The position numbers were made by a program, and so were the translations under genes. Of a stretch of DNA of 33,850 nucleotides, positions 10,903-27,453 are shown piece by piece. A model generated the notes under the pieces. It did no database searches. It saw only the letters and a program-made list of their open reading frames with translations, and had not been told where the DNA came from. Position 1 is the stretch's first letter, and every line of letters starts with the position of its first letter. The DNA is taken from assembly GCA_003153775.1 (NCBI GenBank), contig PMBI01000043.1, positions 1-33,850 of the forward strand. The letters run 5' to 3'. The stretch comes from Syntrophaceae bacterium (lineage in GTDB: Bacteria > Desulfobacterota > Syntrophia > Syntrophales > UBA2185).

Positions 10903-11364
10903 TTACGCATTTCTCAGAAGATAAATCTCCCGCCGGCATGGCGGACAAATATCGAGCACCCCGAACACATTCGCCGGTTCATCCTTCAACCTCGCGAAGA
11001 CGAAGTCCTCCACGGGAATCGCCACAAAGGCCCTGCCGCAGCATTTGCAGGTTTTTGCATTTTCGAGGAGGTTCTCATCTACTGCCGCCTCCCTGAGCTT
11101 TCTGATGAGATCCCTGCAGCTCACACCCTGCGGGCATGTATCCGTTCCGGCGTTGCACTCCGTGCAATACCAGATGTTCTTGTCCTCAACCACCGGGTCG
11201 CCCATGAGCGTCTTTTTTATGATGCCCCGCGGCGACATCTCGATGGAAAAGTTCGCATACATCTCCGCCATGGGACAGACGGCAACGCAGCGCCCGCACT
11301 CTACGCAGGAATCCGCGCCCGATGCGCGTTTCGCCTCGTCGATTTTATCTTTCGTGTTTTTCAT
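10903..11364 (-). CDS. HdrC-like iron-sulfur protein with extra C-terminal Cys pairs
   Basis: A 153-residue cytoplasmic iron-sulfur protein like heterodisulfide reductase subunit C. The first cluster motif, CVECGRCVAVCP, is complete. The second, CTECNAGTDTCP, has Gly where the third Cys of the usual C-x2-C-x2-C-x3-CP would be. The tail adds CKCCGR and CPPCR, which could form a rubredoxin- or zinc-ribbon-like site; the CCG domain of HdrB is absent. The start overlaps the end of fdhA by 20 bp and the stop abuts the next gene, so it is translationally coupled. It probably passes electrons between formate dehydrogenase and the membrane fusion protein. The family call is firm; the cluster count is less so. 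Confidence 0.8.
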   Translation of the reverse strand: MKNTKDKIDEAKRASGADSCVECGRCVAVCPMAEMYANFSIEMSPRGIIKKTLMGDPVVEDKNIWYCTECNAGTDTCPQGVSCRDLIRKLREAAVDENLLENAKTCKCCGRAFVAIPVEDFVFARLKDEPANVFGVLDICPPCRREIYLLRNA

Positions 11365-13396: not shown

Positions 13397-14237
13397 CGTC
13401 TTTTCTCAAACTGTTTACCCAGTCCGGCAGCGCCTGTCCTGCTGCAGGCTCTTTGCACAGATCATACAGGATCGGGGAATTCCTTTCCGGGTCAAGCCCG
13501 GCATCGTAGCCATAGGTCTCGCGGAGCATCTCCCGCATGGACAGCTGGAGGGCCATGAGCGGAATATTCACCGGGCAGGCCTCCTGACATGCCCCGCAGG
13601 CCACGCATGTATCCGACAGATGAAACGCCCGTATCAGGTGGTACGAAAGCACCTCCGCAGGTATGACGCCTGTTTCCACCCAGACCTGGTCTTCCAGTTT
13701 GCAGGGTACGCAGACACAGATGGGGCACGAGTTCCGGCATCCGTAACACTTGATGCATCGCTTAAGGATGTTCGCCCATTTTTCCATTCTCGCCGGGCCG
13801 TCGCCGGCAAGCAGCTCCTTCACGCTTTCAATCGAGAACGGATCAACACCTGCTACAGCATCGCCGCAATCGAGCTTTTGCGGGTACGGACGGTCGCAGA
13901 TGCACGCCTGCGCCTGCTCCGCCGTGCAGGCAATTCCGATTGTTACGAGCCGTTCCTTTTCAATCTGGTTCCTTTTCACAAGTTCCGTGAGCGCCCTTTC
14001 ATCGCAGCCGCGCACAACGACTGCCAGCCTGTAGCCCTCCCTTGAAGACCGCAGGACGGTCATCGCCATTTTTGCGAGCAGCCATTTGGGTTCAATCACA
14101 AGGGCATCCACCTCGACCGGACTTTCGAAGATGTGGGGCTGGATGATATCCCACTGCCCTTTCATCAGACCGAGGACTCCGTCTGCCTGCTTTTCTGCAA
14201 GAACCGTCCTCGCTATCTCTTTTACTTTTTCCAGCAT
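13386..14237 (-). CDS. FdhB/FrhB-like iron-sulfur protein
   Basis: A 283-residue cytoplasmic protein. The N-terminal half (about 30-125) resembles the FrhB/FdhB domain in style, with VVVRGCDERAL and TIGIACT. The C-terminal half carries Cys-rich motifs CIKCYGCRNSCPICVCVPC and CVACGACQEACPV, suggesting two 4Fe-4S clusters with extra Cys. Proteins of this kind sit next to FdhA and HdrA in anaerobes and hand electrons from formate dehydrogenase to a flavoprotein. It begins the second gene block and overlaps fdhA. I do not see a complete F420/FAD site, so flavin binding is open. It is separated from mvhD by a repeat-filled gap, and whether the promoter lies there is unknown. Confidence 0.8.
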   Translation of the reverse strand: MLEKVKEIARTVLAEKQADGVLGLMKGQWDIIQPHIFESPVEVDALVIEPKWLLAKMAMTVLRSSREGYRLAVVVRGCDERALTELVKRNQIEKERLVTIGIACTAEQAQACICDRPYPQKLDCGDAVAGVDPFSIESVKELLAGDGPARMEKWANILKRCIKCYGCRNSCPICVCVPCKLEDQVWVETGVIPAEVLSYHLIRAFHLSDTCVACGACQEACPVNIPLMALQLSMREMLRETYGYDAGLDPERNSPILYDLCKEPAAGQALPDWVNSLRKDDES

Positions 14238-14250
14238 AGTACTCTTTAAA

Positions 14251-14331
14251 TGTCATTCCGAACGCACGTGAGGAATCTTTAGCTTTCCTCTTCGGTCCAA
14301 ACTAAGATTTCTCGCTTCGCTCGAAATGACA
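14251..14331. repeat. Long imperfect palindrome (TGTCATTCCGAAC family)
   Basis: The left arm starts TGTCATTCCGAACGCACGTG and the right arm ends CTTCGCTCGAAATGACA; the arms are imperfect inverted copies with AAGATT/AATCTT also mirrored. A second copy is cut by the window start (bases 1-10). This is a mobile-looking intergenic repeat that lies between mvhD and the FdhB-like gene. Confidence 0.7.
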
Positions 14332-14343
14332 GAAAATAATTAG

Positions 14344-14437
14344 TGTCATTCCCGTCCCCGACAAACACATTCGAGGACAGGCTCCGGCGGGAGTCCAGAT
14401 ATTTAAACACTGGATTCCCACTTTCTCGGGAATGACG
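14344..14437. repeat. Two GTCATTCCCG...CGGGAATGAC-type elements
   Basis: One copy runs 14344-14396, from GTCATTCCCG to CGGGAGTCCAG. A second, shorter one runs 14408-14437, from ACTGGATTCCC to CGGGAATGAC, in opposite orientation. The same end sequences occur at 19-70, 1148-1175 and 4283-4312. Confidence 0.7.
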
Positions 14438-14443
14438 GAATAA

Positions 14444-14500
14444 TGTAGTACAGACTTTCAGGTCTGCCTTCTTTTCGCAGGACTGAAGTCCCGCACTACG
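14444..14500. repeat. TGTAGT...ACTAC palindromic element
   Basis: This element has inverted ends (TGTAGT and ACTAC) and two inner hairpins, CAGACTTTCAGGTCTG and GGACTGAAGTCC. It matches the design of the element at 1044-1098. It ends just after the mvhD stop, so it may act as an RNA hairpin at the 3' end of that gene block. Confidence 0.7.
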
Positions 14501-14504
14501 TCTT

Positions 14505-14909
14505 TCATAACGATGCTGTCCACGCTACCGTGGACGGCATCGTCTTCAGTTCTTCAAAGAATGTTTTTACGACCTCTGCATACTGGTAACCCTCGTGTGC
14601 CGTCCCGAAACTGATCAACAGTCTCTTACCGCCGATCCCCGTTGCGTCCAACAGCGTCTTCAGGAGCTCCAGCCTTTTGATGGCGGCATGGTTCGCGTCG
14701 TTGAACCGGCACCCTCCCAGATGGCAGCCTAAGACCGCCACCCCTGTCATTCCGGACGCAAACGCCCTGATTACCGCATCAGGCTCGACGAGCGCCGCGC
14801 ACTCCACCGCAATCACCCGGAACTCCGGGGGAAGCTGTATTCTCTTTTTCCCCGCGCCGTCGGCGCCGATGAGGCCGCACCACTTGCATGCAAAGATCAG
14901 GATTTTCAT
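14505..14909 (-). CDS. MvhD-type 2Fe-2S electron-transfer subunit
   Basis: A 134-residue protein of the MvhD/FrhD-type hydrogenase-associated family, related to BamF and to the C-terminal domain of QmoB. Cys8 and Cys11 in FACKWCG, the Cys in AVECAAL, and GCHLGGCRF match the family pattern; a 2Fe-2S cluster is expected. It connects an electron donor (hydrogenase or formate dehydrogenase) to HdrA. The start overlaps the HdrA-like stop as ATGA, so the pair equals a split QmoB. No selenocysteine is needed, because position 11 is an ordinary Cys. The gene ends the upstream block, right at a repeat cluster. Confidence 0.88.
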   Translation of the reverse strand: MKILIFACKWCGLIGADGAGKKRIQLPPEFRVIAVECAALVEPDAVIRAFASGMTGVAVLGCHLGGCRFNDANHAAIKRLELLKTLLDATGIGGKRLLISFGTAHEGYQYAEVVKTFFEELKTMPSTVAWTASL

Positions 14910-16618
14910 AAAGCGCTCTCTTCGCCAAAGGCCTGTTTAATCATGGCTGCTACGGCCCGGTAATCCTGTTCAGGCAACTGCACTGTACCGTTTGGACAGA
15001 CGGATACGCAGTTGCCGCAGGCCTTACACCGGAGCTTGTTGATCCTGCTGATTGATTTCCTTCCCATCTTCTGAAGCCGGCACGCAGCGAATGGACAAAC
15101 AGCCACGCAATTGCCGCACCCTGTGCACTTCTCGGCATTGACTGCGGCATGGCCGAATTTTTCTCCGGGAACCCGGCTCAAAGACAGGGCCGAAACGGCT
15201 TTGCTCCCCAAGAGCGCCGCAGCTTTAGCGGCGGCCCCTTCCCCCTGCACCATCGCATTATCGGATGACACGGGCCACCTCGCAGAACCGCAGATGAAAA
15301 CCCCGTCCATTCTTGTTTCGAGGGGATGGAGCGGATAGATTTCCGAAAAGAAGCCGTAGCGGTCAACCTGCAGACCGAGCATGTGGGCAAGCTTTACGTT
15401 ATCGTCATTCGGAATGAGAGGCGTACTCAGGACGACGAGATCGCATTCGAGCTTCCTCTTCATCCCGCTCACGCTGTCAATAACCTCCACACCCTCTACA
15501 CGTTCATTACCGAGCATTTCGGGAGGGTTCGTCTCTTCAAAGCGGATAAACTGCACCCCTTTAGCAAGGGCGTTTCTGTAGTAGGCCTCGAGGACGCTTC
15601 CGGGCGTCATGATATCGCGATGGAGTATGAATACCCGCGCATCGGGATTTTCTTCTTTTATTCTTACGGCGTTTTTCAGGCTCGAAGGACAGCACATTGT
15701 CGCGCAATAAGGCCGCTCATGATTCCTCGCGCCCACGCACTGAATGAAGACGGCGGCCTTGACCTCACGCGGACCCTTGATGAATTGCCTCTCGAGCTCC
15801 ATCTGTGTGATCACATTCTTAAGCTTGCCATATCTGTAAAGGCCGTGGGGAAGCCACACCCGCGCACCGGACGCAAGGATCACGGCCCCTACCCGGAGCC
15901 TCTGTTCACCTGCAGAAGAAGAGACCTGCACATTGAAGTTGCCGGCAAAGCCCGTAATCGAATTTATCTTCGCCTTCGGATAAAAATTGATGAGAGAATT
16001 TTTATCCACTTCATCAACGAACGTCTTGATTTTTTCGGACGCCTTCTCATCGGATGGATACACGTGGGAGATCAGGTTCAGCATGCCGCCGGGGTTTGAC
16101 CCCCTTTCGACAAGATGCACCTTGAAACCCATTTGCGCAAGCGTCCGCGCGGCGGAAAGCCCCGCCGGGCCGGCGCCGACAATCATGGCTTCGGGACACA
16201 CACTGACTGTTACGTCATCCGATGCCCGCCTGTGATGAAGGCCGGCGATTTCCATACTGATCAGGTCCCATGCCTTCTCCGTTGCTCCTTCCGGATGATC
16301 CTTGTGAATCCATGCACACGCCTCCCTCAGGTCGACGAGACCGATCGCGGAGCGCTTGATTCCGCGCTCGACGAGAGCATCAACAACCGCGCCGCCCCTT
16401 GCCAGATGCGAGCATCCGCCGATCACGACTTTTTCGGCACCGGACTCCCTGATGCGGGAAGCCGTCTTCTCGATATCATCCGCGAGACAGAGGGATTCGC
16501 AAACGGCAGAAGAAACGACATCGTTATTTCTCTCTGCTTTTTTTTGCAGTGAATCGAGGTCAATCACGCGATTGACTTCTCCGAAACATCTGCAAAGAAA
16601 AACTGCGATACCCGACAT
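14906..16618 (-). CDS. HdrA/QmoB-like FAD and iron-sulfur flavoprotein
   Basis: A 570-residue HdrA-family protein. The N-terminal domain (1-130) has FLCRCFGE and IGGCSHLARG, as in HdrA and QmoB. The FAD/NAD fold starts at about 143 with MIVGAGPAGLSAARTL, followed by the middle Cys motif FIQCVGARNHERPYCATMCC. Two C-terminal 4Fe-4S clusters are CTGCGNCVAVCPFAAC and CKACGNCVSVCPNG. HdrA binds FAD and can split electron pairs between high- and low-potential acceptors. With the next gene (MvhD) it matches the domain order of QmoB, and with the preceding QmoA-like gene it makes a Qmo-like pair; no QmoC is present. The ATG is 3 bp after the upstream stop. Bifurcation is inferred from the family, not shown. 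Confidence 0.9.
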   Translation of the reverse strand: MSGIAVFLCRCFGEVNRVIDLDSLQKKAERNNDVVSSAVCESLCLADDIEKTASRIRESGAEKVVIGGCSHLARGGAVVDALVERGIKRSAIGLVDLREACAWIHKDHPEGATEKAWDLISMEIAGLHHRRASDDVTVSVCPEAMIVGAGPAGLSAARTLAQMGFKVHLVERGSNPGGMLNLISHVYPSDEKASEKIKTFVDEVDKNSLINFYPKAKINSITGFAGNFNVQVSSSAGEQRLRVGAVILASGARVWLPHGLYRYGKLKNVITQMELERQFIKGPREVKAAVFIQCVGARNHERPYCATMCCPSSLKNAVRIKEENPDARVFILHRDIMTPGSVLEAYYRNALAKGVQFIRFEETNPPEMLGNERVEGVEVIDSVSGMKRKLECDLVVLSTPLIPNDDNVKLAHMLGLQVDRYGFFSEIYPLHPLETRMDGVFICGSARWPVSSDNAMVQGEGAAAKAAALLGSKAVSALSLSRVPGEKFGHAAVNAEKCTGCGNCVAVCPFAACRLQKMGRKSISRINKLRCKACGNCVSVCPNGTVQLPEQDYRAVAAMIKQAFGEESAL

Positions 16619-16621
16619 TTC

Positions 16622-17851
16622 TTAACTCTTCCTTTTCGCGAGAATTGCCCTCACAGCCGCTGAAGACGCCTGTATGACCGACTCCGCCACATCCGCAGGC
16701 GCCGCGCTGAAGCCGCAGGAGAAGCGGGAAATATCATCGGACGCCGCATTCACAAACCCTTCACCCGAAAGAACAGGTGAAAAATGTTTTTCCTGGTCTT
16801 TCTTTCTCAGGGAAGACCCGATATTGCCGTTCAGGACAACCATATCGAATTTCCAGATCTCCCTTTTCTGGGTCATGGTATTTTCAAACTTTATTGCGAT
16901 GCCGTCCCGCCCGGGGAGCGGATAGATGTGAGATGGCCTCCCCCTTATAAGTCTCACGCGGCTCCCGCTTATCTCCCTTTGGGAGTAGTCGTAATAGTCG
17001 CGTCCCACCGTCCGTAGATCGGTGTAGAAGACGACGCACTGAATGACAGGATTCCTCCTTATCGACCACTGGGCCTGCTTGAGCGCATGCATGCAGCAGA
17101 CGGCGGAACAGTATGAGAGTAGCCTTTGATCCCTTGCGCCTGCGCACTGTATGAAGGCGATATTGCGTGGGGCTATGGAATTTGATTTTTTTATGATTGC
17201 CCCTCTATTGACGCCTGCCTCTCCCGTCCAGTCCTCAAACTCCATCGCCGTCATGATGTCCGGATGTTTTCCCAGCCCGAACTCCGGAAGCGGTGAGAGA
17301 TCGACTTCCATAAAACCGGAAGCCCAGATTACATCGTCGAACATAAGTTCAGACTTCTCTTCTCTCCTCTGAAAATCGATAGCTTTCGTGGGACATGCCT
17401 TTACGCACTCTTCGCACCTGTTGCAGATTTCCTCTCTGACCAGGTAAGTAGGCGGGTAAACATGCTCACCCGGGGTCTCTATCGCTGCTTCGGTACAAAC
17501 GCCTGCGCATCGCCCGCAGAAGACGCAGAGGCCTTCATCGATGACCGGAGGTTTTTTTACCATGGCCGCGTGGACGCGGCCGCCCTCTCTCTTGAGCTCT
17601 TTCACTTCGGTAGATGTATGGACGGTAACCAGAGGATTGTCCCTCAGTTTTTTGATATCCGTCCAGAGCGGACAAAAGGCGCAGTGATCCGTAGGATAGA
17701 GTTTGTCGAGCCTGGCAACCTGGCCGCCGAGGATTTGCTCCTTCTCCACGAGATGGACGGCATGGCCGCAACAGGCGAGGTCGAGAGCCGCGCCGATGCC
17801 GGCGACGCCGCCGCCAATGATAAGAACAGAAGATGCATTCGCGCTGTTCAT
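16622..17851 (-). CDS. QmoA/HdrA-like flavoprotein
   Basis: A 409-residue FAD protein of the short HdrA group to which QmoA belongs. It opens with SVLIIGGGVAGIGAALDLA and the substrate-side motif GGQVARLDKLYPTDHCAFCP, close to the pattern in QmoA. Two 4Fe-4S motifs, CVFCGRCAGVC and CNRCEECVKACP, lie at about 108-155, then FIQCAGARDQRLLSYCSAVCC in the C-terminal half. In sulfate reducers QmoA works with QmoB and QmoC between menaquinol and APS reductase; no APS reductase gene is in this window. Here the partners would be the HdrA/QmoB-like protein, MvhD and formate dehydrogenase. It directly follows the NapG-like stop with no gap. Length agrees with QmoA. Confidence 0.87.
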   Translation of the reverse strand: MNSANASSVLIIGGGVAGIGAALDLACCGHAVHLVEKEQILGGQVARLDKLYPTDHCAFCPLWTDIKKLRDNPLVTVHTSTEVKELKREGGRVHAAMVKKPPVIDEGLCVFCGRCAGVCTEAAIETPGEHVYPPTYLVREEICNRCEECVKACPTKAIDFQRREEKSELMFDDVIWASGFMEVDLSPLPEFGLGKHPDIMTAMEFEDWTGEAGVNRGAIIKKSNSIAPRNIAFIQCAGARDQRLLSYCSAVCCMHALKQAQWSIRRNPVIQCVVFYTDLRTVGRDYYDYSQREISGSRVRLIRGRPSHIYPLPGRDGIAIKFENTMTQKREIWKFDMVVLNGNIGSSLRKKDQEKHFSPVLSGEGFVNAASDDISRFSCGFSAAPADVAESVIQASSAAVRAILAKRKS

Positions 17852-18550
17852 TTACTCATCTTCCTCTTCTTTGATGATCCCGTATGATTTGCCGAGCTTC
17901 TTGACCCTTTCCACAAACCAGTCCTTAAAATCCTCTTCGCCGTGTTTCTTGCCTGCTTCATCGGGAAGGCGCATGGAGACCCCCTTCTCCGGCGGCAGGA
18001 ACCTTTTTACCTTTTCGTAATATACGACGATGGATTTCGGATTCGTCGGGCACTTTCTCTCGCACGCCCCACAGCCCGTGCAGGGATCTTCGAGAACCAC
18101 GGGGTAAATCTTGTTCTCCAGTTTGATCGCGTCGTAGCGGCAGGCGTTATAGCAGATGTCACACTTGCTCTTGCCCGACCATGTAAGGCACGTACCCGGG
18201 TCGATTACGGCGTTCCCGATATCGATATCGTCCCGGGAGATCCTCTTTATGGCCCCCGTAGGACACGTCCTGATACAGTTCATGCAAAAGATGCACTTCT
18301 TCCAGTCCAGAACCGGTGTTCCAAAATTGGGAATGCCGCCGGAAATGCCCGCCGGATGAAGTGCGTCGGCAGGACACACATCTATACACTGGTAGCACCG
18401 TGTGCAGTACTTGAGAAATTCCGGTTCGATGAGCGCACCGGGCGGGCGGGGTAATGCTTTTGCACCACTGACTTTAAAAGATGTAAAAATAAGGGTGGAA
18501 ACCGCGCCGCTAACCAGAATATGGAGCGCATCCCTTCTTGAAAAACTCAT
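17852..18550 (-). CDS. NapG-like Tat-exported ferredoxin
   Basis: A 232-residue iron-sulfur protein like NapG/MauM. The twin-arginine motif SRRDALHI at residues 4-11 plus a hydrophobic segment predicts Tat export. Four 4Fe-4S sites follow: CTRCYQCIDVCP, CIFCMNCIRTCP, the Cys set CDICYNAC with an upstream Cys, and CTGCGACERKCP. The C-terminal 40 residues are charged. NapG normally receives electrons from membrane NapH; here the NapH-like fusion is encoded eight genes downstream on the same strand. It is the first gene of the block, about 150 bp after the AOR operon, so the promoter should lie in 18551-18640. Periplasmic location is predicted, and the terminal electron partner is unknown. Confidence 0.88.
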   Translation of the reverse strand: MSFSRRDALHILVSGAVSTLIFTSFKVSGAKALPRPPGALIEPEFLKYCTRCYQCIDVCPADALHPAGISGGIPNFGTPVLDWKKCIFCMNCIRTCPTGAIKRISRDDIDIGNAVIDPGTCLTWSGKSKCDICYNACRYDAIKLENKIYPVVLEDPCTGCGACERKCPTNPKSIVVYYEKVKRFLPPEKGVSMRLPDEAGKKHGEEDFKDWFVERVKKLGKSYGIIKEEEDE

Positions 18551-18640
18551 GACAAACGATTACCTATTTTACTCCAATAAAATAATTCGTCTTGATAGCT
18601 ACAAGATGATCCGTACGCTTGAATATATAGCATGCAGCCC

Positions 18641-18684
18641 CAAAAAGCAAGGGCGGGTGAAACCTCGCACCCGCCCCGTTTGCT
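18641..18684 (-). terminator. Strong intrinsic terminator after AOR gene
   Basis: Read on the minus strand, arms GGGCGGGTG and CACCCGCCC pair perfectly around an eight-base loop. Flanking AGCAA/TTGCT extends the stem, and CTTTTTG follows. It begins 13 bases after the AOR stop and separates the AOR operon from the NapG/Qmo/Fdh genes. Confidence 0.85.
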
Positions 18685-18697
18685 CTAAACTGCTCTT

Positions 18698-20521
18698 CTA
18701 CAAATTGTACTCCTTGCGGGCCCGTGCGATATCATCGATGGAGTATTCAAGACCGTAAGCCTTCAATGTCGCATCCGTCGGGATACCTTTTGCATCCCAG
18801 CCGACGAAACTGTAGAATTCATCCTGCATCTTCTTTGTATCTTCCTCAGTGAAGATGGCTCCCTTCTTCGGTCCCGCAGGAAGCTTCTCCGTCCTCATGC
18901 GTACCGGCAGGATATCATCCTTGCGGCTGATGCCTTCCCTTACGTTGAAGACGCGCTCCATGGTGAGGATCCGCTTCCCCGTCGTCCAGTAATCATCTTC
19001 CGTCATATTCCACCCGCAGAGCGGATTCAGCATGCCGACGGTGATCTTCGCGTTTTCGCCGCCCCAGATGAGTGCGCTTGCGAATGAGCACGTGGAAAGG
19101 GAATTGATCATCGCAAAAATGACGAGGGCTCGCGTTGAAGCGCCCTCATGGTGATCCCCTCCGCAGGAACCGAGAGCGTAGCTATATGCCCTGGCCTTAT
19201 CGCCTCTTGCGTCATGGGCTGCCAATTCCTTGCCCTTCACGTGGACGGCATATGCCTCGGACCCCTTGCCTATCTCCGCAGACATCTTCTTCACACCCTT
19301 GGAAAGAAGTTTGCCCGCTTTGCCTTCCTTGTAGACTATCTTCCTGATAAGTTCCATATAGGTATCCCCATCGCCCCACTTCGGTTTGAGACCATCAAGG
19401 TCGGCGGGTTTGAGGACGCCCTTCTCCACAAGCTCTGTTGTAAATCCGAGAACGCCTCCAGTAGAGATGTTGTCGATGCCGTAGGCGTCGCAGGCCTCGA
19501 TGAGGGCGATCATGTCGTTGAAGTTAGTCATTCCGAGGTTGCTGCCCAAAAGTCCGCCGGATTCGTACTCAGGACCTTCGGCAATCAGCCCCTTGTACTT
19601 GCCTTCACGGATTACGCCCAGCTTCAGGCAATGGATGGGGCAGTGATTGCACGCCACGTGCCGCTTCCAGAATTTCCGGTTTGCCTCCTCGGCGCCGATC
19701 TTTACAACGTCAGGATACCATGTTGTCTGGTAGTTCTTTGTGATGAGTGACCCGGTGAAAAAATTATTCTGCTCCATGAGACCGGCAGTTCCCCACCTCT
19801 TGATGCCCTGCCAGGCTTCTTTTTCCACTGCGAGCTTCTTGGCATAGGTGGCCATCTCCATGAATTTCACGTTGTCAACAACAGGCACACCCTTGCTTCC
19901 TCTGACGGCCAGGCCTTTCAGCTTCTTGTTGCCCATCAGCATACCCGTTCCGCTTCTTGCGGCGGCGCGGAAACGCTCCACAATCACGCAGGAGAAGGGA
20001 ACCTGGTTCTCGCCTGCCGGGCCGATAACCGCCGTCCGGGCATAGGGGTCATTCATCCCTTTGATGATCGCTTCGTGCGTCTCTTCCGTGTCCTTGCTCC
20101 ACAGCTTTGTGGCATCCTTGAATTCTACTTTATCGTCCACGATAGAAAGCCACACAGGCTTCTTCGATCTTCCCTTGATGTAAATGCCGTCCCAGCCGGC
20201 CCATTTAATTTCGTTGCCGAAATGGGCGCCTGTCTCTGCGTGGGAGATCAGGCCCGTGTAAGGGCTCATATGGGCGAAGCTTGTGCGCGTGGATACGCAG
20301 AACGTGCCATTAAGTGGTCCCGGACCGATGTAAATGAACGCATCTTCCGCCAGGGGGTCTTTATGAGCCTTGTACTCAGTCGTGAGAAAATATGCAGCGA
20401 GCCCGTTGCCTCCGATGGCCTTCTGATAGATTTCATCGGGGACTTCGCGGGTCTTATATGTCTGTTTACTTAAATCAATCTCGAGAATTTTTCCGAAACA
20501 TCCGCCTTTTGTTGCTGTCAT
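18698..20521 (-). CDS. aor: Aldehyde:ferredoxin oxidoreductase family enzyme
   Basis: A 607-residue full-length AOR-family tungsten (or molybdenum) bis-pterin enzyme, which would oxidise aldehydes to acids or reduce acids with low-potential electrons. The N-terminal domain shows GGNGLAAYFL and IGPGPLNGTF. Three cluster ligands are Cys291, Cys294 and Cys298 in CNHCPIHC; Cys478 in SLSTCSF is the expected fourth. The pterin region AHDARGDKARAYSYALGSCGGDHH is intact. No signal peptide is present, although the gene directly downstream of a Tat-exported ferredoxin gene (2 bp apart) would be its natural redox partner. Specificity is undetermined: BamB-type and YdhV-type homologs share these motifs. 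Confidence 0.92.
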   Translation of the reverse strand: MTATKGGCFGKILEIDLSKQTYKTREVPDEIYQKAIGGNGLAAYFLTTEYKAHKDPLAEDAFIYIGPGPLNGTFCVSTRTSFAHMSPYTGLISHAETGAHFGNEIKWAGWDGIYIKGRSKKPVWLSIVDDKVEFKDATKLWSKDTEETHEAIIKGMNDPYARTAVIGPAGENQVPFSCVIVERFRAAARSGTGMLMGNKKLKGLAVRGSKGVPVVDNVKFMEMATYAKKLAVEKEAWQGIKRWGTAGLMEQNNFFTGSLITKNYQTTWYPDVVKIGAEEANRKFWKRHVACNHCPIHCLKLGVIREGKYKGLIAEGPEYESGGLLGSNLGMTNFNDMIALIEACDAYGIDNISTGGVLGFTTELVEKGVLKPADLDGLKPKWGDGDTYMELIRKIVYKEGKAGKLLSKGVKKMSAEIGKGSEAYAVHVKGKELAAHDARGDKARAYSYALGSCGGDHHEGASTRALVIFAMINSLSTCSFASALIWGGENAKITVGMLNPLCGWNMTEDDYWTTGKRILTMERVFNVREGISRKDDILPVRMRTEKLPAGPKKGAIFTEEDTKKMQDEFYSFVGWDAKGIPTDATLKAYGLEYSIDDIARARKEYNL

Positions 20522-20523
20522 GG

Positions 20524-21300
20524 TTACGACCTCCTCGTCTTTTTAGTCTTAGCGGGGGTGGGTCTCTTCCCGTCGACATTAGGATAGAACGTGAGATCCA
20601 GTAGATCCTTACCCGCCTCGTTGGGCTTCACATCCCTGAAAGCCAGATTGACGCCAAACCCAAGTTTGTTTGTCATAAGGCAGGGCCCCTGCGGATTGCC
20701 GGACTGATCTTTGCAGGCCTTCACGCAGGCGGGATCACCGGCGCACATGTCACACATGAGGGGCATACCCGTGTCAGGATTCACCCAGACAAACTGTGCC
20801 GGACACGCCTCCTGGCATTTCAGACACTTCCTGCCCAGACAGGTTTTTTCATTCAAGATAATGCCGTTGTGATTGGGATCTGGAATTATCGATTTCGGAG
20901 TCGTGGGACAGGCCGCAACGCATGGCGCGTCGTTACAATGCCAGCATACAACAGGAACATCTATCGAATCCTTGTACTTCAGCACGTGAATGCGGGATAC
21001 CGAGGGTCTTACGACGCCTGTATGATAGACAGAACATGCATATTCACAGGCCCTGCAACCTGTGCAATTTTCCCTCTCGGCAAACAGATACTTCATTAAA
21101 TCTTTTTGGGGGGCAGGTGCTGCGGCCTGAGCATGGGCAGCCTTGGCCGCCAAGCCTCCGACCGTAACCATGGCAACAGCGCTGCCCGCTGCCACTGCCG
21201 TCCCTCTCAAAAAACCACGCCGCGTAGTTTCCTTCGGGAACAGATCGGGTAATTTCTTTTCCTTTCCTTCCATAACATAACCTCCATTCTGGTCATTCAT
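20524..21300 (-). CDS. Tat-exported multi-cluster ferredoxin, AOR partner
   Basis: A 258-residue iron-sulfur protein. The Tat motif TTRRGFLRG at about residues 26-34 and a following hydrophobic stretch ending in AHAQA predict export of the folded protein. The mature part has DmsB/HycB-type cluster motifs: CTGCRACEYAC, CWHCNDAPCVAACP, CLGRKCLKCQEACP and CDMCAGDPACVKAC. The C-terminus is basic. It lies 66 bp after the cytochrome gene and 2 bp before AOR, so co-transcription with AOR is nearly certain. Similar gene pairs (an AOR-family protein with a ferredoxin) occur in E. coli ydh. Whether AOR travels with it by piggy-back export is unknown. Confidence 0.88.
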   Translation of the reverse strand: MNDQNGGYVMEGKEKKLPDLFPKETTRRGFLRGTAVAAGSAVAMVTVGGLAAKAAHAQAAAPAPQKDLMKYLFAERENCTGCRACEYACSVYHTGVVRPSVSRIHVLKYKDSIDVPVVCWHCNDAPCVAACPTTPKSIIPDPNHNGIILNEKTCLGRKCLKCQEACPAQFVWVNPDTGMPLMCDMCAGDPACVKACKDQSGNPQGPCLMTNKLGFGVNLAFRDVKPNEAGKDLLDLTFYPNVDGKRPTPAKTKKTRRS

Positions 21301-21366
21301 TTAACGTGTTGACTCTATACTGCCTAAATAAACTCCGGCGCCTCTTAATTTTTATCTGCCGTCCGT

Positions 21367-21867
21367 TTACTTAAGTTTGCTCGTGTAGACGTAGTCATTT
21401 CCTTTCTGGGCGACATGGCATTTTATGCACTCGTCAACCTTTCCTTCCGCTTCGATCCTTCCATCAGGCTTGTACTGCGCCCAGAACCAGTCCCCGTCCT
21501 TCGCGTTGTAGCCTTTAACCTTGTACATGACGGAAATAAATTTGAGCTTCTTGTCTTTCGAAAAGTTATCCTGTGCAATTATTGCCCCGTCCAAGAACTT
21601 CCCCTTCTTGGCGCCGATGGACTTCAAGGCCGCGTCATTGACATAGGTTGTCAAAAATGCGCCGTGCGGTTCCGGCCCCTGATACATGGGCGTCGTTCCG
21701 GGCCACATCTTCCAATTCTTTGCATACGTCTGTTTCTTCAGATAATCCCATACCGAAGCCCCCGTCGCCGCAAGGGCGCCGCCCTTCTTGGCCTGAGCAA
21801 AGATCATCCCGGAGAAGACAAGACTCAAGATAATAAGAAGCAAAATCAAAAACACCGTTTTCTTCAT
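21367..21867 (-). CDS. Exported cytochrome P460-family protein, single heme c
   Basis: A 166-residue periplasmic protein. The first 25 residues are a clear Sec signal peptide (hydrophobic run, ending IFAQA). One heme c site, CIKCH, lies near residue 149. The mature region has the cytochrome P460-type order HGAFLTTYVND, FISVMYKVKGYN and GDWFWAQYKPDGRIEAEGKVDECIKCH. P460 proteins oxidise hydroxylamine or bind NO; many homologs in anaerobes have no known substrate. GGAGG lies upstream of the ATG. The ferredoxin-AOR pair follows after 66 bp with no terminator seen, so they may form one operon. A divergent ModE-like gene shares the upstream region. Confidence 0.8.
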   Translation of the reverse strand: MKKTVFLILLLIILSLVFSGMIFAQAKKGGALAATGASVWDYLKKQTYAKNWKMWPGTTPMYQGPEPHGAFLTTYVNDAALKSIGAKKGKFLDGAIIAQDNFSKDKKLKFISVMYKVKGYNAKDGDWFWAQYKPDGRIEAEGKVDECIKCHVAQKGNDYVYTSKLK

Positions 21868-22172: not shown

Positions 22173-22502
22173 GTGGAAATCAAACACAAATTATGGCTCG
22201 AGCGTGATGGCCGCGTGATTTTTGGGCCTGGTCGAGAAGGATTGCTCAGGGCCGTTGAAGAATGCCACAGTCTGAACGCGGCGGCTAAAAAATTGAAAAT
22301 GTCCTACAGGGCTGCATGGGGGAGGATCAAGGCGTCCGAAGAAAGGCTGGGTATGAAGCTTGTGGAGATGGACAGCGTTAAACACGGCATGCATCTTACG
22401 GATGAAGCCAAGGAACTCATGAATTGTTTCGATCAACTTGAAAGCGATATTGCACGCCTTCTTAATAAAGCCAACGGCAAACTGCCATTGAGACGTTACT
22501 GA
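22173..22502 (+). CDS. ModE N-terminal-type winged-helix regulator
   Basis: A 109-residue DNA-binding protein with only the N-terminal domain of ModE-like/LysR-type regulators. The pattern LWLERDGRVIFGPGREGLL, then SLNAAAKKLKMSYRAAWGRI (helix-turn-helix), and a wing region is typical. The molybdate-binding TOBE/DiMop domains of E. coli ModE are missing, so metal sensing would need another protein or is absent. The start is GTG at 22173, with GGAG eight bases upstream. It is divergent from the P460-ferredoxin-AOR operon and close to formate dehydrogenase and AOR genes, all Mo/W enzymes, which supports a role in their control (inference). It converges with the GlcG/HbpS gene. Confidence 0.85.
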   Translation: MEIKHKLWLERDGRVIFGPGREGLLRAVEECHSLNAAAKKLKMSYRAAWGRIKASEERLGMKLVEMDSVKHGMHLTDEAKELMNCFDQLESDIARLLNKANGKLPLRRY

Positions 22503-22618: not shown

Positions 22619-23104
22619 TTAGTTTATCACTTTGGCCCCAGCCGTCGCGACCTGGCCATCCTGCGCTGCTGCTCCGCCCGACACGCCTATCGCGCCTATG
22701 ATCTTGCCATCTTGAATGATCGGCACACCGCCTTCAATTGCGATTATACCGTCCAGGGTCAGATATGCCGTCTTTCCACTCCCGATCGTATCCTCAAATG
22801 CCTTCGTCGGTCTCTTGTAAGCAACAGAACACTTTGCCTTGTGGAGCGCCGCATCGACACTGCCGTACTGGACAACATCGAACCGTTCGAGATAGAGAAG
22901 ATTGCCGCCCGTATCCACAACGGTGATCACGACATTTATCTTTATCTTCATCGCTTCCGATGCCGCAGCAGCAGCCACCTTCTTAGCCGTTGCCAGGCTT
23001 ATATTCGGGCCATATGGATTTGGCATCTGCTGGGCCAGGGCTACGCCGGAAAAAACAAACAACAAGACCACAGAAAGGACAGTTATGACTTTTAGTATAC
23101 GCAT
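22619..23104 (-). CDS. Exported GlcG/HbpS (DUF336) family protein
   Basis: A 161-residue exported protein. A Sec signal peptide (residues 1-25, ending GVALAQ) precedes the GlcG/HbpS domain: VVTVVD-like ITVVDTGGNLLYLERFD, AHLKA-like ALHKAKCSVAYKRPT, and the Gly-rich end IIGAIGVSGGAAAQDGQVATAG. HbpS of Streptomyces binds heme and senses redox stress; other homologs are of unknown ligand. AAGGAGG lies just before the ATG, and a good sigma-70 promoter is seen upstream. It sits between a ModE-like regulator and the divergent FeeM-like operon. With nearby cytochrome and AhbB genes a heme link is tempting but unproven. Confidence 0.88.
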   Translation of the reverse strand: MRILKVITVLSVVLLFVFSGVALAQQMPNPYGPNISLATAKKVAAAAASEAMKIKINVVITVVDTGGNLLYLERFDVVQYGSVDAALHKAKCSVAYKRPTKAFEDTIGSGKTAYLTLDGIIAIEGGVPIIQDGKIIGAIGVSGGAAAQDGQVATAGAKVIN

Positions 23105-23177: not shown

Positions 23178-23202
23178 TAAAAATTCTGCATCGTGCTTTC
23201 TG

Positions 23203-23244
23203 TGACATACCAATATTGACATACAAACCTCTTTCTTATACGCT
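23203..23244 (+). promoter_or_regulatory. TGACATA direct repeat and candidate promoter of FeeM-like gene
   Basis: TGACATA occurs at 23203-23209 and 23217-23223, spaced by seven bases. TTGACA (23216-23221) inside the second copy with TACGCT 17 bases on (23239-23244) could be a promoter for the FeeM-like gene. The ten-base TATTGACATA (23214-23223) equals half of the palindrome at 22063-22080. The -10 match is weak. Confidence 0.4.
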
Positions 23245-23284
23245 ATTAGCATAAGATCGGCTCAGTTTTAAAGGAGAAAGCGCC

Positions 23285-24136
23285 TTGGGCGGCAGATTAC
23301 TGGAAGGGAATGAATACCGGTTCGGACCGAAAAATGACTGGACCATCGTTGTCGCAAACGCGCGGCAGTTGCGTGAGAAGGCATTTAAGGTCGTCCATGA
23401 CATCTACGCCGCCAAAGGATACGCTCTGGCGCCGAACCTGGAGAGCGGGTTATGGTGCACGCTGCACCACCTGCATCCCCAAGCATTGACCTTTCTCGCC
23501 CTGAAAGCAGGACAGGCGGCGGGGACTGTCAGTATTGTTCCCGACTCCCGGCTGGGGCTGCCTGCGGATATCATATTTCCCGAGCAGCTCGCAGTTTTAA
23601 GAAAGGACGGACGGCGGCTCAGCGAGATATTTTCGCTCGGCGTGGATGAGGGAATCACCCACAGCGCCATCGATCTCACGATGCACCTGTACAGACTTGT
23701 CCATCTTGCCGCTACCCGCCTGTTCCATAATACAGACATTGTTGCGTCTGTCATGGCCCATCATTCCGTATTTTACTCAAAGATTCTTCTTTTTGACGAG
23801 GTATCGCCGGAGTCGCGACAAAGCCCGAAGACGGGTGAACAGGTGATCTTTACACGGATGAACCTGGAAACGATGGAAAGCCGGTATGCGGATCGATACG
23901 GCAGGTTGAAGGGCAAGAGAAATCTCCACCGCTGGTTCTTCCGCAATGATGAGGAGCAGGCCATGGTTGACTGGATTCGTAGGAACAGGCAGCTCATGAC
24001 TGCCGGCGAATTGAATTATTTCGGGGCGGAGAAGTCCCATGCGCTCGCCGAGGCTGGTTCCGACGCCGTTGCCATCCTCATGGATTACTGCCGGGAGTCT
24101 AAGGTCGACGGAGGTCCGAAACGATGCGAGGATTAG
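23285..24136 (+). CDS. FeeM-like N-acyl amino acid synthase / autoinducer-synthase-fold acyltransferase
   Basis: A 283-residue protein of the GNAT-related FeeM/LuxI-type acyl transferase group. Typical elements are KAFKVVHDIYAAKGYAL near residue 35, TFLALKAGQAAGTVSIVPDS, GLPADIIFPEQLAVLRKDGR and SEIFSLGVDEG, the last resembling the aEISRLAV motif of FeeM. FeeM joins a fatty acyl group from acyl carrier protein to an amino acid. No signal peptide is seen. Start: TTG at 23285 with AAAGGAG nine bases upstream; the frame has no better ATG before the domain. The ThiF-like and MFS genes follow closely on the same strand, suggesting a joint pathway making and exporting an acylated product. Substrate is unknown. 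Confidence 0.8.
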   Translation: MGGRLLEGNEYRFGPKNDWTIVVANARQLREKAFKVVHDIYAAKGYALAPNLESGLWCTLHHLHPQALTFLALKAGQAAGTVSIVPDSRLGLPADIIFPEQLAVLRKDGRRLSEIFSLGVDEGITHSAIDLTMHLYRLVHLAATRLFHNTDIVASVMAHHSVFYSKILLFDEVSPESRQSPKTGEQVIFTRMNLETMESRYADRYGRLKGKRNLHRWFFRNDEEQAMVDWIRRNRQLMTAGELNYFGAEKSHALAEAGSDAVAILMDYCRESKVDGGPKRCED

Positions 24137-24138
24137 AC

Positions 24139-24180
24139 ATGCGCCGAAAAAAGCATAATGAATTTTGTGCGGGAAGGTAA
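24139..24180 (+). CDS. Possible 13-residue mini-ORF before thiF-like gene
   Basis: An ATG at 24139, two bases after the FeeM-like stop, opens a 13-codon frame reading MRRKKHNEFCAGR and ending TAA at 24180, two bases before the ThiF-like ATG. GAGG lies eight to eleven bases upstream of the ATG, suitable as a ribosome-binding site. In microcin C systems a very short peptide gene precedes the ThiF-like mccB. Coding is unproven; such a short frame can arise by chance. Confidence 0.2.
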   Translation: MRRKKHNEFCAGR

Positions 24181-24182
24181 TT

Positions 24183-25082
24183 ATGACTTGGAAGGATATC
24201 GTCAACCGAGAGCAGGGGATCGTTAATTTTACGGAAGAGCTGATCTCCGTAATAGGAAGAACGCGCGTCCTTGTGATGGGAGCGGGGGGGAACGGTGCGG
24301 TTATCGACTTCCTCCTGCGCGTAGGCTACCAGCACTTTGTCATTGTAGATTTCGATGTGGTTGAGGCCACGAATCTGAACCGCCTTCCCTTCACGCCGGA
24401 ATATGTAGGCAGGGCCAAGACGGAGGCATGGAAGGAATATCTGGAGAAAGTCAATCCCGGTTGCAGTGTTACGACCTATAGCCGGAAGGTAACCCGGAAT
24501 GACGAGAAACGGGTGGAAGAAATTGTTTCCGCCGTGGACATTGTGGCCCTCGGGACATCAGACGCCGAGGCGAACCTTGTGGTCGCGCGGGTATGCCACA
24601 GGCTCCGGAAGCGGATGGTTATCGGTCCCGGCACCTCCAATTGCTGGATTGTCAGCACCGTAACCCATGAAGGCGATATCTCAATCGAGAGCGTGGGAAA
24701 ATTCGGCGTCGAACATCTTGATGTCCGAGACGTCGACTACCAGGCCCTCCTGCCCATGTACATGAAGATTTATATGTTCCCGGGACGGACGGAAAAGCTA
24801 TATCCGGAGACCCTGAAGAAGGTGCAGAGCCGGGAGATACCGCCCAGGAACTGCAAGATATTCGTTTCCATGGTGAATGCGGCGGCCTGCTGGGAGATCG
24901 TGAAGAATACGGCGGTGATGAACGGCATGACACTCGAGAACACGAAGGTAATAGAGTTCCCCATTATACAGGTCTTTGACCCCTTCAAGGGGAGTGCCTA
25001 CTATTACGACGCGGCAAAGGAGCAGATCGGGATACCGAACTGGCTTACCGGCAGGATAAGATGGCATCAGACGACGCGGTGA
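24183..25082 (+). CDS. ThiF/E1-like adenylating enzyme
   Basis: A 299-residue ATP-dependent activating enzyme of the ThiF/MoeB/MccB/E1 superfamily. The nucleotide site is VLVMGAGGNGA (about 35-45), followed by IVDFDVVEATNLNRLPF, where Asp and Asn-x-x-Arg contact ATP, and LGTSDAEANL with the conserved Asp. No CxxC zinc pairs like those of MoeB are visible, so a thiol-transfer role is less likely than simple adenylation. It would activate a C-terminal carboxylate of a peptide, ubiquitin-like protein or small acid. I chose the ATG at 24183, with GGAAGG upstream, rather than the TTG at 24165. No ubiquitin-like partner gene (ThiS/MoaD) is nearby. The neighbours suggest natural-product modification. 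Confidence 0.85.
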   Translation: MTWKDIVNREQGIVNFTEELISVIGRTRVLVMGAGGNGAVIDFLLRVGYQHFVIVDFDVVEATNLNRLPFTPEYVGRAKTEAWKEYLEKVNPGCSVTTYSRKVTRNDEKRVEEIVSAVDIVALGTSDAEANLVVARVCHRLRKRMVIGPGTSNCWIVSTVTHEGDISIESVGKFGVEHLDVRDVDYQALLPMYMKIYMFPGRTEKLYPETLKKVQSREIPPRNCKIFVSMVNAAACWEIVKNTAVMNGMTLENTKVIEFPIIQVFDPFKGSAYYYDAAKEQIGIPNWLTGRIRWHQTTR

Positions 25083-25087
25083 CCCCA

Positions 25088-25198
25088 ATGAGAGAAAAGC
25101 CATCGACCGCTGCAAGACATGGCGGGTGTGAGCCGCGCATCCCGGCAGGATTGGCGCCACGTGAGATCAGACGATGCTTGGCCGAGAGGTCGCCGTAG
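25088..25198 (+). CDS. Possible 36-residue small ORF between thiF-like and MFS genes
   Basis: An ATG five bases after the ThiF-like stop opens a 36-codon frame ending TAG at 25198, three bases before the MFS ATG. The peptide starts MREKPSTAARHGGCEPRI and has two Cys and many Arg. GGTGA before the ATG is only a weak ribosome-binding site. The tight fit between neighbours favours translation, but the region is GC-rich and open in several frames, so I rank it low. It could be a peptide substrate or simply leader-like spacer. Confidence 0.25.
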   Translation: MREKPSTAARHGGCEPRIPAGLAPREIRRCLAERSP

Positions 25199-25201
25199 AA
25201 T

Positions 25202-26392
25202 ATGCCTCCTTCCAGAAGCAACGGCGCCTTCGTCGTTCTCATAGCCGCCGCCATAGCGGTAGGTCAATTAGGTGTAAGTCTCTACCTGCCGGCAATACCG
25301 GGGATCGGCGCTGATCTCCGCATCTCTTCTTCCTGGATGTCCTTGACCCTCACCGTATATTTTGCCGGATTTGCGTTTTTCAATCTCTTCTCAGGCCCAT
25401 TCTCGGATGCCCTGGGAAGGCGTTTCATGATTCTCCGGGGTTTGGAAGTGTACGCTGTTGGCACTCTGCTCTGCGCCATGGCTACTGACATCACCATGCT
25501 CTTGGCAGGAAGAGCCCTCCAAGCCCTCGGCGCGGGTGTGGCCCCCGTGGTAGGCAAGGCCATGATCCAGGACACGTCGTCCGAGGATCGCACTGTGATG
25601 CTCATGGGCTGGCTGGGGGCCGCCATATCGATAACCCCGGCGGTCGCTCCTTTCCTTGGCGGCATTATAACTGAACATTTAAGATGGCAATGGACATTCT
25701 GGTCACTACTTATCTTTAATGCAGTCGTCTGGATTCTTAATTTCTCCCTGCTCAAGGAAACCCTTCCCTCCCCTTCCTCCCGCCGCATTGCGGTTATCTC
25801 TGTCCTTAAGACCTATCGGAATTTCCTTGGAAACCGGATCTACATGGGATACGTTCTCCTTCTCGGTGCATGCTTCGGTGGTTTGGGGGCTTACTATACG
25901 GCATCGCCCTTCATCTTCATCAGTGGTTTTCGCATGAGCCCTTCTTCCTACGGCCTGATCACCCTGATAGCTGCGACGGGCTTTATCATGGGCAACATTG
26001 GTGCGGGATACATCGTTCGCAATAGACCATCAGGGCGAATATTCTCTGCAGGGGAAGTCATTCTGCTGATAGGGGCTCTCGGGATGTTTTGCATGCCGAG
26101 GGAGATGGTCACGGTGACAACGATTTTGGGAATGACCTTTCTCTTTACCGTGGGTTTCGGTATAATCTTTCCCATAGCGACGAAAGAGGCTCTCGGTTGT
26201 TATGTGGCGCAGACAGGCGCGGCAGCCGCACTGATCGGGTTTTTCCAACTCGGCGGATCCGCGCTCAGCAGCCTTGCCGTAGGCTTCCTGCAAGCCCGGG
26301 GCGTCTCTTCTTACAGTGCCATGGCCTCCGTCATGTTTCTATTTGTCGCTCTTGCACTTGCCAACATTCACCGCATACAGCGCGGCAGATGA
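25202..26392 (+). CDS. MFS exporter, Bcr/CflA drug-resistance family
   Basis: A 396-residue inner-membrane transporter of the major facilitator superfamily with about 12 hydrophobic segments. The first helix ends VSLYLPAIPGI, and the loop 2-3 motif is GPFSDALGRRFMIL. GRALQALGAG and AAISITPAVAPFLGG (motif C-like, antiporter signature) place it with Bcr/CflA proton-driven exporters, which pump drugs, peptides or sulfonamides. It follows the ThiF-like gene by about 120 bp and is probably in its operon. By position it would export the product of the FeeM/ThiF-like enzymes, much as MccC exports microcin C. AGAGG 12 bases upstream of the ATG is a weak site; a coupled small ORF may help. Confidence 0.9.
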   Translation: MPPSRSNGAFVVLIAAAIAVGQLGVSLYLPAIPGIGADLRISSSWMSLTLTVYFAGFAFFNLFSGPFSDALGRRFMILRGLEVYAVGTLLCAMATDITMLLAGRALQALGAGVAPVVGKAMIQDTSSEDRTVMLMGWLGAAISITPAVAPFLGGIITEHLRWQWTFWSLLIFNAVVWILNFSLLKETLPSPSSRRIAVISVLKTYRNFLGNRIYMGYVLLLGACFGGLGAYYTASPFIFISGFRMSPSSYGLITLIAATGFIMGNIGAGYIVRNRPSGRIFSAGEVILLIGALGMFCMPREMVTVTTILGMTFLFTVGFGIIFPIATKEALGCYVAQTGAAAALIGFFQLGGSALSSLAVGFLQARGVSSYSAMASVMFLFVALALANIHRIQRGR

Positions 26393-26458: not shown

Positions 26459-27091
26459 ATGAAAAAAATATGCATGGTTTCAGGTCTGGCAGCAATTCTT
26501 GTCTTTATTTCACTACCGCTCGGGGCGAAAGAAGTGAGAGGCCCCATGAAACCGATCGCCCCTCTCATGATCGAACACCGTCTCATCGAGCGCATGGTTG
26601 GAGTAATGGAGGACTATGTGGCTTCCGCACAGGGAAGCAAAAAAGTGAACCCCGCTTTCGTCGACATGGTGTGCGATTTTTTCAGAACATACGGGGATAG
26701 GACACACCACGGGAAGGAAGAGGATATCCTCTTTGTTCGATTGGCCAAGAAGAACCTCTCAGACGACCATAGGAAGATGTTGAATAGGCTCATAAATGAA
26801 CACGTTCAGGCAAGGAAAATGATAGCGAAGCTGGCACAGGCCAGGGAAACATACGTAAGAGGGGATGAAGATGCCGGCAGTGATATCCTGAACAGCCTGA
26901 AAGCGATCACAGTTCTTTATAGAAAACACATCGAACTTGAGGACAAACATTTTTTCATTCCGTGTCTGCAATATTTCACGAAGGACGAGATGGACGCTAT
27001 GCTAAGCGATATGTGGGAATATGACAGGAACATGATTCATGTAAAATACAAGGAAGTTGTGGGACAGGCCGGAGACTTGATCATCAAGTGA
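26459..27091 (+). CDS. Exported hemerythrin-domain protein
   Basis: A 210-residue predicted periplasmic O2-binding diiron protein. A Sec signal peptide (1-23, ending LPLGA) is followed by a hemerythrin HHE domain. Iron ligands are offered by His in IEHRLIERM, HHGKEED, NEHVQARK and HIELEDKHFF, spaced as in the family, with the Glu in GKEED. A perfect ribosome-binding site, AAAGGAGG, stands eight bases before the ATG. Most bacterial hemerythrins are cytoplasmic; export here suggests capture of O2 or iron in the periplasm. The Tat-exported rubredoxin gene follows in the same direction and may supply electrons. Signal export is predicted, not shown. Confidence 0.88.
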   Translation: MKKICMVSGLAAILVFISLPLGAKEVRGPMKPIAPLMIEHRLIERMVGVMEDYVASAQGSKKVNPAFVDMVCDFFRTYGDRTHHGKEEDILFVRLAKKNLSDDHRKMLNRLINEHVQARKMIAKLAQARETYVRGDEDAGSDILNSLKAITVLYRKHIELEDKHFFIPCLQYFTKDEMDAMLSDMWEYDRNMIHVKYKEVVGQAGDLIIK

Positions 27092-27153: not shown

Positions 27154-27453
27154 ATGAAAAACATATGGGACACCCTGAGCCGCCGCCAGTTCATAAAATC
27201 AGCAGCCTTGACCTTTTTCGGGCTCTTGTCTTTCATACTTTCGGGTCTTCCCGAAAGAGCGAGAGCACAGTCAGGAACGGACGCTCCCGCCATGTCCAAG
27301 TATATCTGCGAGATCTGCGGTTACATTTATGACCCGGAAAAGGGAGACCCTTCAGCAGGCATTCCGGCCGGAACTTCCTTTGAAAAACTGCCGGACAGCT
27401 GGAGATGCCCGATCTGCGGCGTTGATAAGACGATGTTCAAGAAAATGAACTGA
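27154..27453 (+). CDS. Tat-exported rubredoxin
   Basis: A 99-residue protein: Tat signal ([13 protein letters not shown] at residues 9-21, ending ARAQ near 39), short linker, then a complete rubredoxin domain. The iron ligands are the Cys of [10 protein letters not shown] and RCPICGVDK. Typical [22 protein letters not shown] is intact. Rubredoxins are almost always cytoplasmic; folded export through Tat is sensible because the iron centre must be built first. GGAGG lies upstream of the ATG. Paired with the exported hemerythrin 62 bp before it, it suggests an outside-facing oxygen-reduction or electron-carrier role. The partner reductase is not seen nearby. Confidence 0.92.

Follow-up and report, generated by a model that had tools for sequence, protein, structure and literature searches.

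The pairing of a FeeM-type gene with a ThiF-type gene has already been described: OxzAB, TyzABC and TrzAS each acylate an amino acid and close the product, after activation with ATP, to an acyl-oxazolone, and a flavin desaturase that needs O2 takes part. In Mycobacterium, TyzA acylates tyrosine or phenylalanine, the ThiF-type enzyme TyzB cyclises the product with ATP, and TyzC desaturates it with O2 (PMC10404671). TrzS is a fusion of the cyclisation and desaturation functions, and the cyclised, non-oxidised compound accumulates when O2 is limited; oxazolones are opened by methanol as well as by acid (PMC12856293). In the stieleriacine clusters, genes for an N-acyl amino acid synthase (NAS), a ThiF protein and a nitroreductase occur together; no oxazolone was seen, and the role of ThiF was left unsettled (PMC12479983). 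A first-pass annotation of the DNA studied here had regarded acylation of a substrate followed by activation of its carboxylate and export as new, but the combination of a FeeM-type acyltransferase with a ThiF-type ATP-dependent cyclase is thus already published (PMC10404671, PMC12856293; for the stieleriacine clusters, PMC12479983).

We analyzed a stretch of 33,850 nucleotides (the window) from a genome whose nearest kin are Syntrophaceae MAGs. As in TyzABC and TrzAS of Mycobacterium and OxzAB of Pseudoalteromonas rubra, a FeeM-type gene stands beside a ThiF-type gene in the window. However, the window pair differs from these systems in having no adjoining flavin desaturase, in the MFS gene that follows it, in a ThiF homologue that forms a separate clade and has an unaligned C-terminal half, and in its presumably anaerobic host. 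A Pfam scan of window proteins found no flavin-dependent oxidase (FDO) of the nitroreductase superfamily adjacent or fused to the pair. We infer from the sources of related MAGs that the host bacteria are anaerobes of sediments, which fits the missing adjoining O2-dependent desaturase. In the stieleriacine, thalassotalic acid and kyonggic acid clusters, an N-acyl amino acid synthase gene likewise adjoins a ThiF gene (PMC12479983), but their nitroreductase has no counterpart beside the window cassette. Within the same phylum, there are also PRK14852-type ThiF proteins and ThiF–nitroreductase fusions, several with FeeM nearby (e.g., in genomes G264 and G223); in trees, however, the window FeeM and ThiF fall outside the groups of these systems.

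Gene order at the locus

The cassette spans positions 23285 to 26392 and comprises FeeM-type, ThiF-like and Bcr/CflA MFS genes, all on the forward strand. Open reading frames and family profiles bore out these three annotated genes, their common orientation and the outer coordinates. The FeeM-type gene (23285–24136) starts with TTG, which is preceded by a conserved AAAGGAG ribosome-binding site and lies downstream of a promoter-like TTGACA block near 23220. When the upstream DNA of four genus members was aligned, this region (23200–23284, forward strand) was strongly conserved; a simple promoter scan did not report the TTGACA block. After a gap of 46 bp follows the E1/ThiF-like gene (24183–25082), for which the ATG at 24183 was preferred over the TTG at 24165 because the orthologs start at M(x)W. 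A further gap of 119 bp separates it from the Bcr/CflA-type MFS exporter gene (25202–26392), which scored 221 bits with TIGR00710 (cut-off 201).

Downstream, on the same strand, lie genes for a hemerythrin HHE protein (26459–27091; PF01814) and for a rubredoxin with a Tat-like signal (27154–27453; PF00301), which by synteny are possible, uncertain members of the operon. The order ThiF–MFS–HHE–rubredoxin is common to the window's genus and G004. In G007, the MFS gene is away from ThiF and adjoins a rubredoxin remnant and an FGE-like gene, so the right flank stayed together there.

Upstream of the cassette, a ModE-domain-like regulator and an HbpS-like protein (22173–22502 and 22619–23104) lie between it and an aldehyde ferredoxin oxidoreductase (AOR) operon and are kept in the genus. 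That operon (13386–21867) includes FlpD-like, FAD/Fe-S (HdrA-like) and 4Fe-4S proteins, with a cytochrome P460-like gene at 21367. Further upstream is a protein in which an AOR N-terminal domain alone was detected (8294–9868); its neighbours are 4Fe-4S proteins and, at 11345–13396, a gene for a molybdopterin oxidoreductase.

The FeeM and ThiF homologues

The window FeeM belongs to the PF21926 family (102 bits against a cut-off of 27; E 3.9e-29), and among solved structures its only relative is FeeM itself (2g0b; E 1.1e-9 with a profile). It retains the FeeM-wide residues, defined as those common to at least 80% of the other Desulfobacterota FeeM proteins: Y41, G45, D87, GLP 91–93, D95, R106, E114, H160, F163 and Y164. 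In the FeeM tree, the protein and its orthologs form one clade.

The window ThiF matched PF00899 (E 2.8e-28) in its N-terminal half alone, and its orthologs are 68–97% identical over their full length. In an alignment of 12 sequences, R9, GxGGNG 33–38, D58, N64, R67 and K79 were invariant or nearly so; from alignment to MoeB and general knowledge of E1 enzymes, we take these to be ATP-site positions. The counterpart of the E1 catalytic Asp is Asp127 only if the alignment is shifted by one residue, and one ortholog has Glu there. No zinc CxxC pairs were seen in the alignment of the window ThiF and its orthologs. When profile–profile alignment to E1 profiles was tried, only about residues 1–170 were covered, and the C-terminal half (about 165–299) aligned with none of the profiles tried; an OxzB-like profile aligned to that of MoeB over 204 columns. 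The adenylate could therefore have a different fate. The predicted structure was fair in the N-terminal half, with pLDDT under 50 at residues 152–209 and in several later parts. Its fold matches were ThiF, MoeB, TcdA and AclA (PDB 9egb), and because pLDDT was low in those parts, they inform on the E1 fold only. PADLOC returned only generic E1 matches, the NF005901 (Rv1355c family) profile did not match the window ThiF, and no description of its family was found among open-licence papers.

Phylogenetic trees contained PRK14852-type (OxzB-like) sequences as well as E. coli MoeB and ThiF, TyzB and OxzB themselves being left out. The window ThiF clade (100/100) was apart from all of these. In the comparison with MoeB and ThiF suggested by the first-pass annotation, the protein stands apart from the E. 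coli enzymes, but the AU test did not reject a joint clade with the MoeB/ThiF rows (p 0.16), nor did it reject one with the OxzB-like sequences (p 0.14).

A ThiF relative of 59% identity occurs in G262 (L074 5389–10565), after an AsnRS gene and one for an AsnA-like class II aaRS paralog; upstream of these are genes for PEP mutase and a flavin reductase. No FeeM of the window's clade was found in that genome at E 0.001.

Distribution of the pair and its neighbours

FeeM and ThiF orthologs were present in an identical 10 of 60 relatives, and the other 50 had neither, a match beyond chance (Fisher p about 1e-11, with shared ancestry ignored; ThiF orthologs called at E under 1e-140). A wider search of the class added G490, G491 and G492, together with a ThiF fragment at a contig end in G529. 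In 12 of 13 genomes, which belong to two families, the two genes adjoin each other and share a strand; the exception is G004, where each lies on a contig of its own. The neighbourhood search proposed at first pass thus recovered a conserved FeeM–ThiF pair. A scan of genome contigs with two short peptide patterns (YMFPGR[TAI]E and PRN[CG]KIFV) found close relatives only, including records that duplicate the genomes above; silence elsewhere is no evidence of absence. Plasmid searches gave remote matches only.

The MFS ortholog was present in 7 of 14 ThiF-bearing genomes (G000–G004, G007 and G529), adjoining ThiF in six of them, and in none of the 17 non-ThiF genomes checked (31 genomes in all; Fisher p about 1e-3, again ignoring shared ancestry). 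It was missing from G006 and from all six genomes of f6, one of the two main pair-carrying families. The inclusion of the exporter in the annotated cassette therefore holds for one genome group, where MFS is part of the unit, but not for f6. On the co-occurrence and adjacency counts, the FeeM–ThiF pair is solid and MFS is a lineage-specific third member; that is, a conserved pair is joined by changeable third partners. In G003 (L027 9104–10164), the MFS frame is broken, residues 235–278 being absent between two matched pieces, which may reflect assembly error or decay. In G529, of family f10, contig C22 ends within ThiF (82% identity over 62 residues), next to MFS (60%), and both orthologs were absent, at the cut-offs used, from its genus-mate G056 and its family members G017 and G047. 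The ThiF–MFS unit was possibly acquired by transfer; alternatively, the contig may be mis-binned. Genes for ParB, a DNA methylase and type III restriction lie on this contig as well (L132 1–9349).

Other neighbours were found in f6. An AOR gene lies right after ThiF on the same strand in G013, G031, G045 and G490, with ferredoxin next in G013 and G031, and a divergent nitroreductase gene lies upstream of the pair in three of the six genomes (G013, G491 and G492). The one nitroreductase scanned, from G013, was generic and had no good match to any FDO model. As the f6 genomes are one genus, these arrangements represent at most a few events each. Nitroreductase genes read beside FeeM in G031 and G045 were rejected as a misread out-of-frame ORF, since tblastn found the gene only in G013, G491 and G492.

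Proposed chemistry and alternatives

We propose that the FeeM homologue would take an acyl group from either acyl-CoA or acyl-ACP and attach it to the amine of its substrate, an amino acid or a small amine whose carboxylate stays free, and that the ThiF homologue would adenylate the carboxylate of this product using ATP. In the simplest ending, the activated carboxylate would be attacked by its own amide oxygen to give a saturated 2-alkyl-oxazol-5(4H)-one, as with TyzB and TrzS; in another, it would be transferred to a different nucleophile. The MFS protein, where present, probably exports the product. With the substrate and step order supposed here, we lean slightly towards acylate-then-adenylate chemistry as the function of the pair. 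The perfect co-occurrence of FeeM and ThiF, their adjacency, the retained FeeM and ATP-site residues, the lack of zinc CxxC pairs, the match to FeeM alone among solved structures and the Tyz/Trz precedent argue for it, as do the confinement of the MFS ortholog to ThiF-bearing genomes and the fact that the lone ThiS/MoaD has a ThiF of its own. Against it count the position of ThiF outside the OxzB-like group, its unaligned C-terminal half, the Asp127 shift, the G262 relative without FeeM and the absences of MFS. An oxazolone ring is the leading candidate for the product, although we put it forward only tentatively.

The same chemistry could end otherwise: FeeM may make an N-acyl amino acid whose adenylate ThiF passes to an amine, a thiol or a second amino acid, yielding an amide or thioester instead of an oxazolone. 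This possibility, which we rate as real but below even, would suit the clade-specific C-terminal half of ThiF and the G262 relative, whose position beside AsnRS and the AsnA-like paralog without FeeM suggests that the enzyme uses amino-acid carboxylates as substrates in at least two pathways. In RiPP pathways, ThiF-like enzymes also form thiolactone, phosphoramidate and indolylamide bonds (PMC12150305). However, the cassette has no obvious enzyme for a second substrate, and cyclisation is the demonstrated reaction of FeeM-linked ThiF enzymes. A microcin C-like system, the first-pass analogy, in which ThiF would modify a tiny ribosomal peptide, FeeM acylate it and MFS export it, appears highly improbable. 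The window does share an E1-like adenylator and an MFS exporter with MccB/MccC, and FeeM could acylate a peptide amine; but, unlike microcin C systems, it has a FeeM gene, its ThiF is not close to MccB (MccB matched the profile at just E 1.1e-6, while UBA1/UBA5, TcdA and MoeB matched it better), and only 46 bp separate FeeM from ThiF. No conserved small ORF was found in the ThiF–MFS gap, and microcin C is therefore a poor model.

The ThiF homologue might instead be the E1 for assembly of a tungsten or molybdenum cofactor, with a MoaD/WorX-type partner, serving the nearby AORs, with FeeM a neighbour by chance. An AOR gene does follow ThiF in the four f6 genomes, and an AOR operon adjoins the cassette in the window and in G004. 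Moreover, AOR–MoaD–MoeB neighbourhoods have been described by Iyer et al. (PMC1779556), and thiF beside a WOR gene has been interpreted as pterin-cofactor biosynthesis (PMC13328260). The window genome has the arrangement of Iyer et al. on another contig, however: its sole ThiS/MoaD gene lies on C44 (L133 7487–11252, G000:C44), between a second ThiF and an AOR gene, and this second ThiF groups with MoeB/ThiF in trees, whereas the window ThiF does not. The absence of a ThiS/MoaD partner noted at first pass is thereby confirmed, and the window ThiF appears distinct from MoeB/ThiF enzymes that act with a sulfur carrier. Furthermore, ThiF is tracked perfectly by FeeM and not by AOR, the neighbouring AORs of family f1 share only some 30% identity with those of f6, and G491, G492, G006 and G007 had no AOR match in the stretch covered, some contigs ending nearby. 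We therefore consider this explanation unlikely.

More speculatively, a distinct E1-like family with its own C-terminal domain, acting with FeeM in anaerobes, may form, without oxygen, N-acyl amino acids of a new class that are activated or cyclised and then exported, and may be a general activator of small-molecule carboxylates; the latter part is suggested because the family may also work with the AsnRS/AsnA-like pair elsewhere. If the proposed function of the cassette holds, chemistry like that of the acyl-oxazolones, which has until now been demonstrated together with a desaturase dependent on O2, would extend to presumably anaerobic bacteria, and its product would be tied to an exporter, bearing on what such lipids do. 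The E1-like clade, with its uncharacterised C-terminal half, is a target for biochemistry.

Paired, tandem ThiF domains were also observed at L036 (9288–11246), L037, L038 and L040; at L036, they form one 652-residue frame, which adjoins an AOR operon homologous to that of the window.
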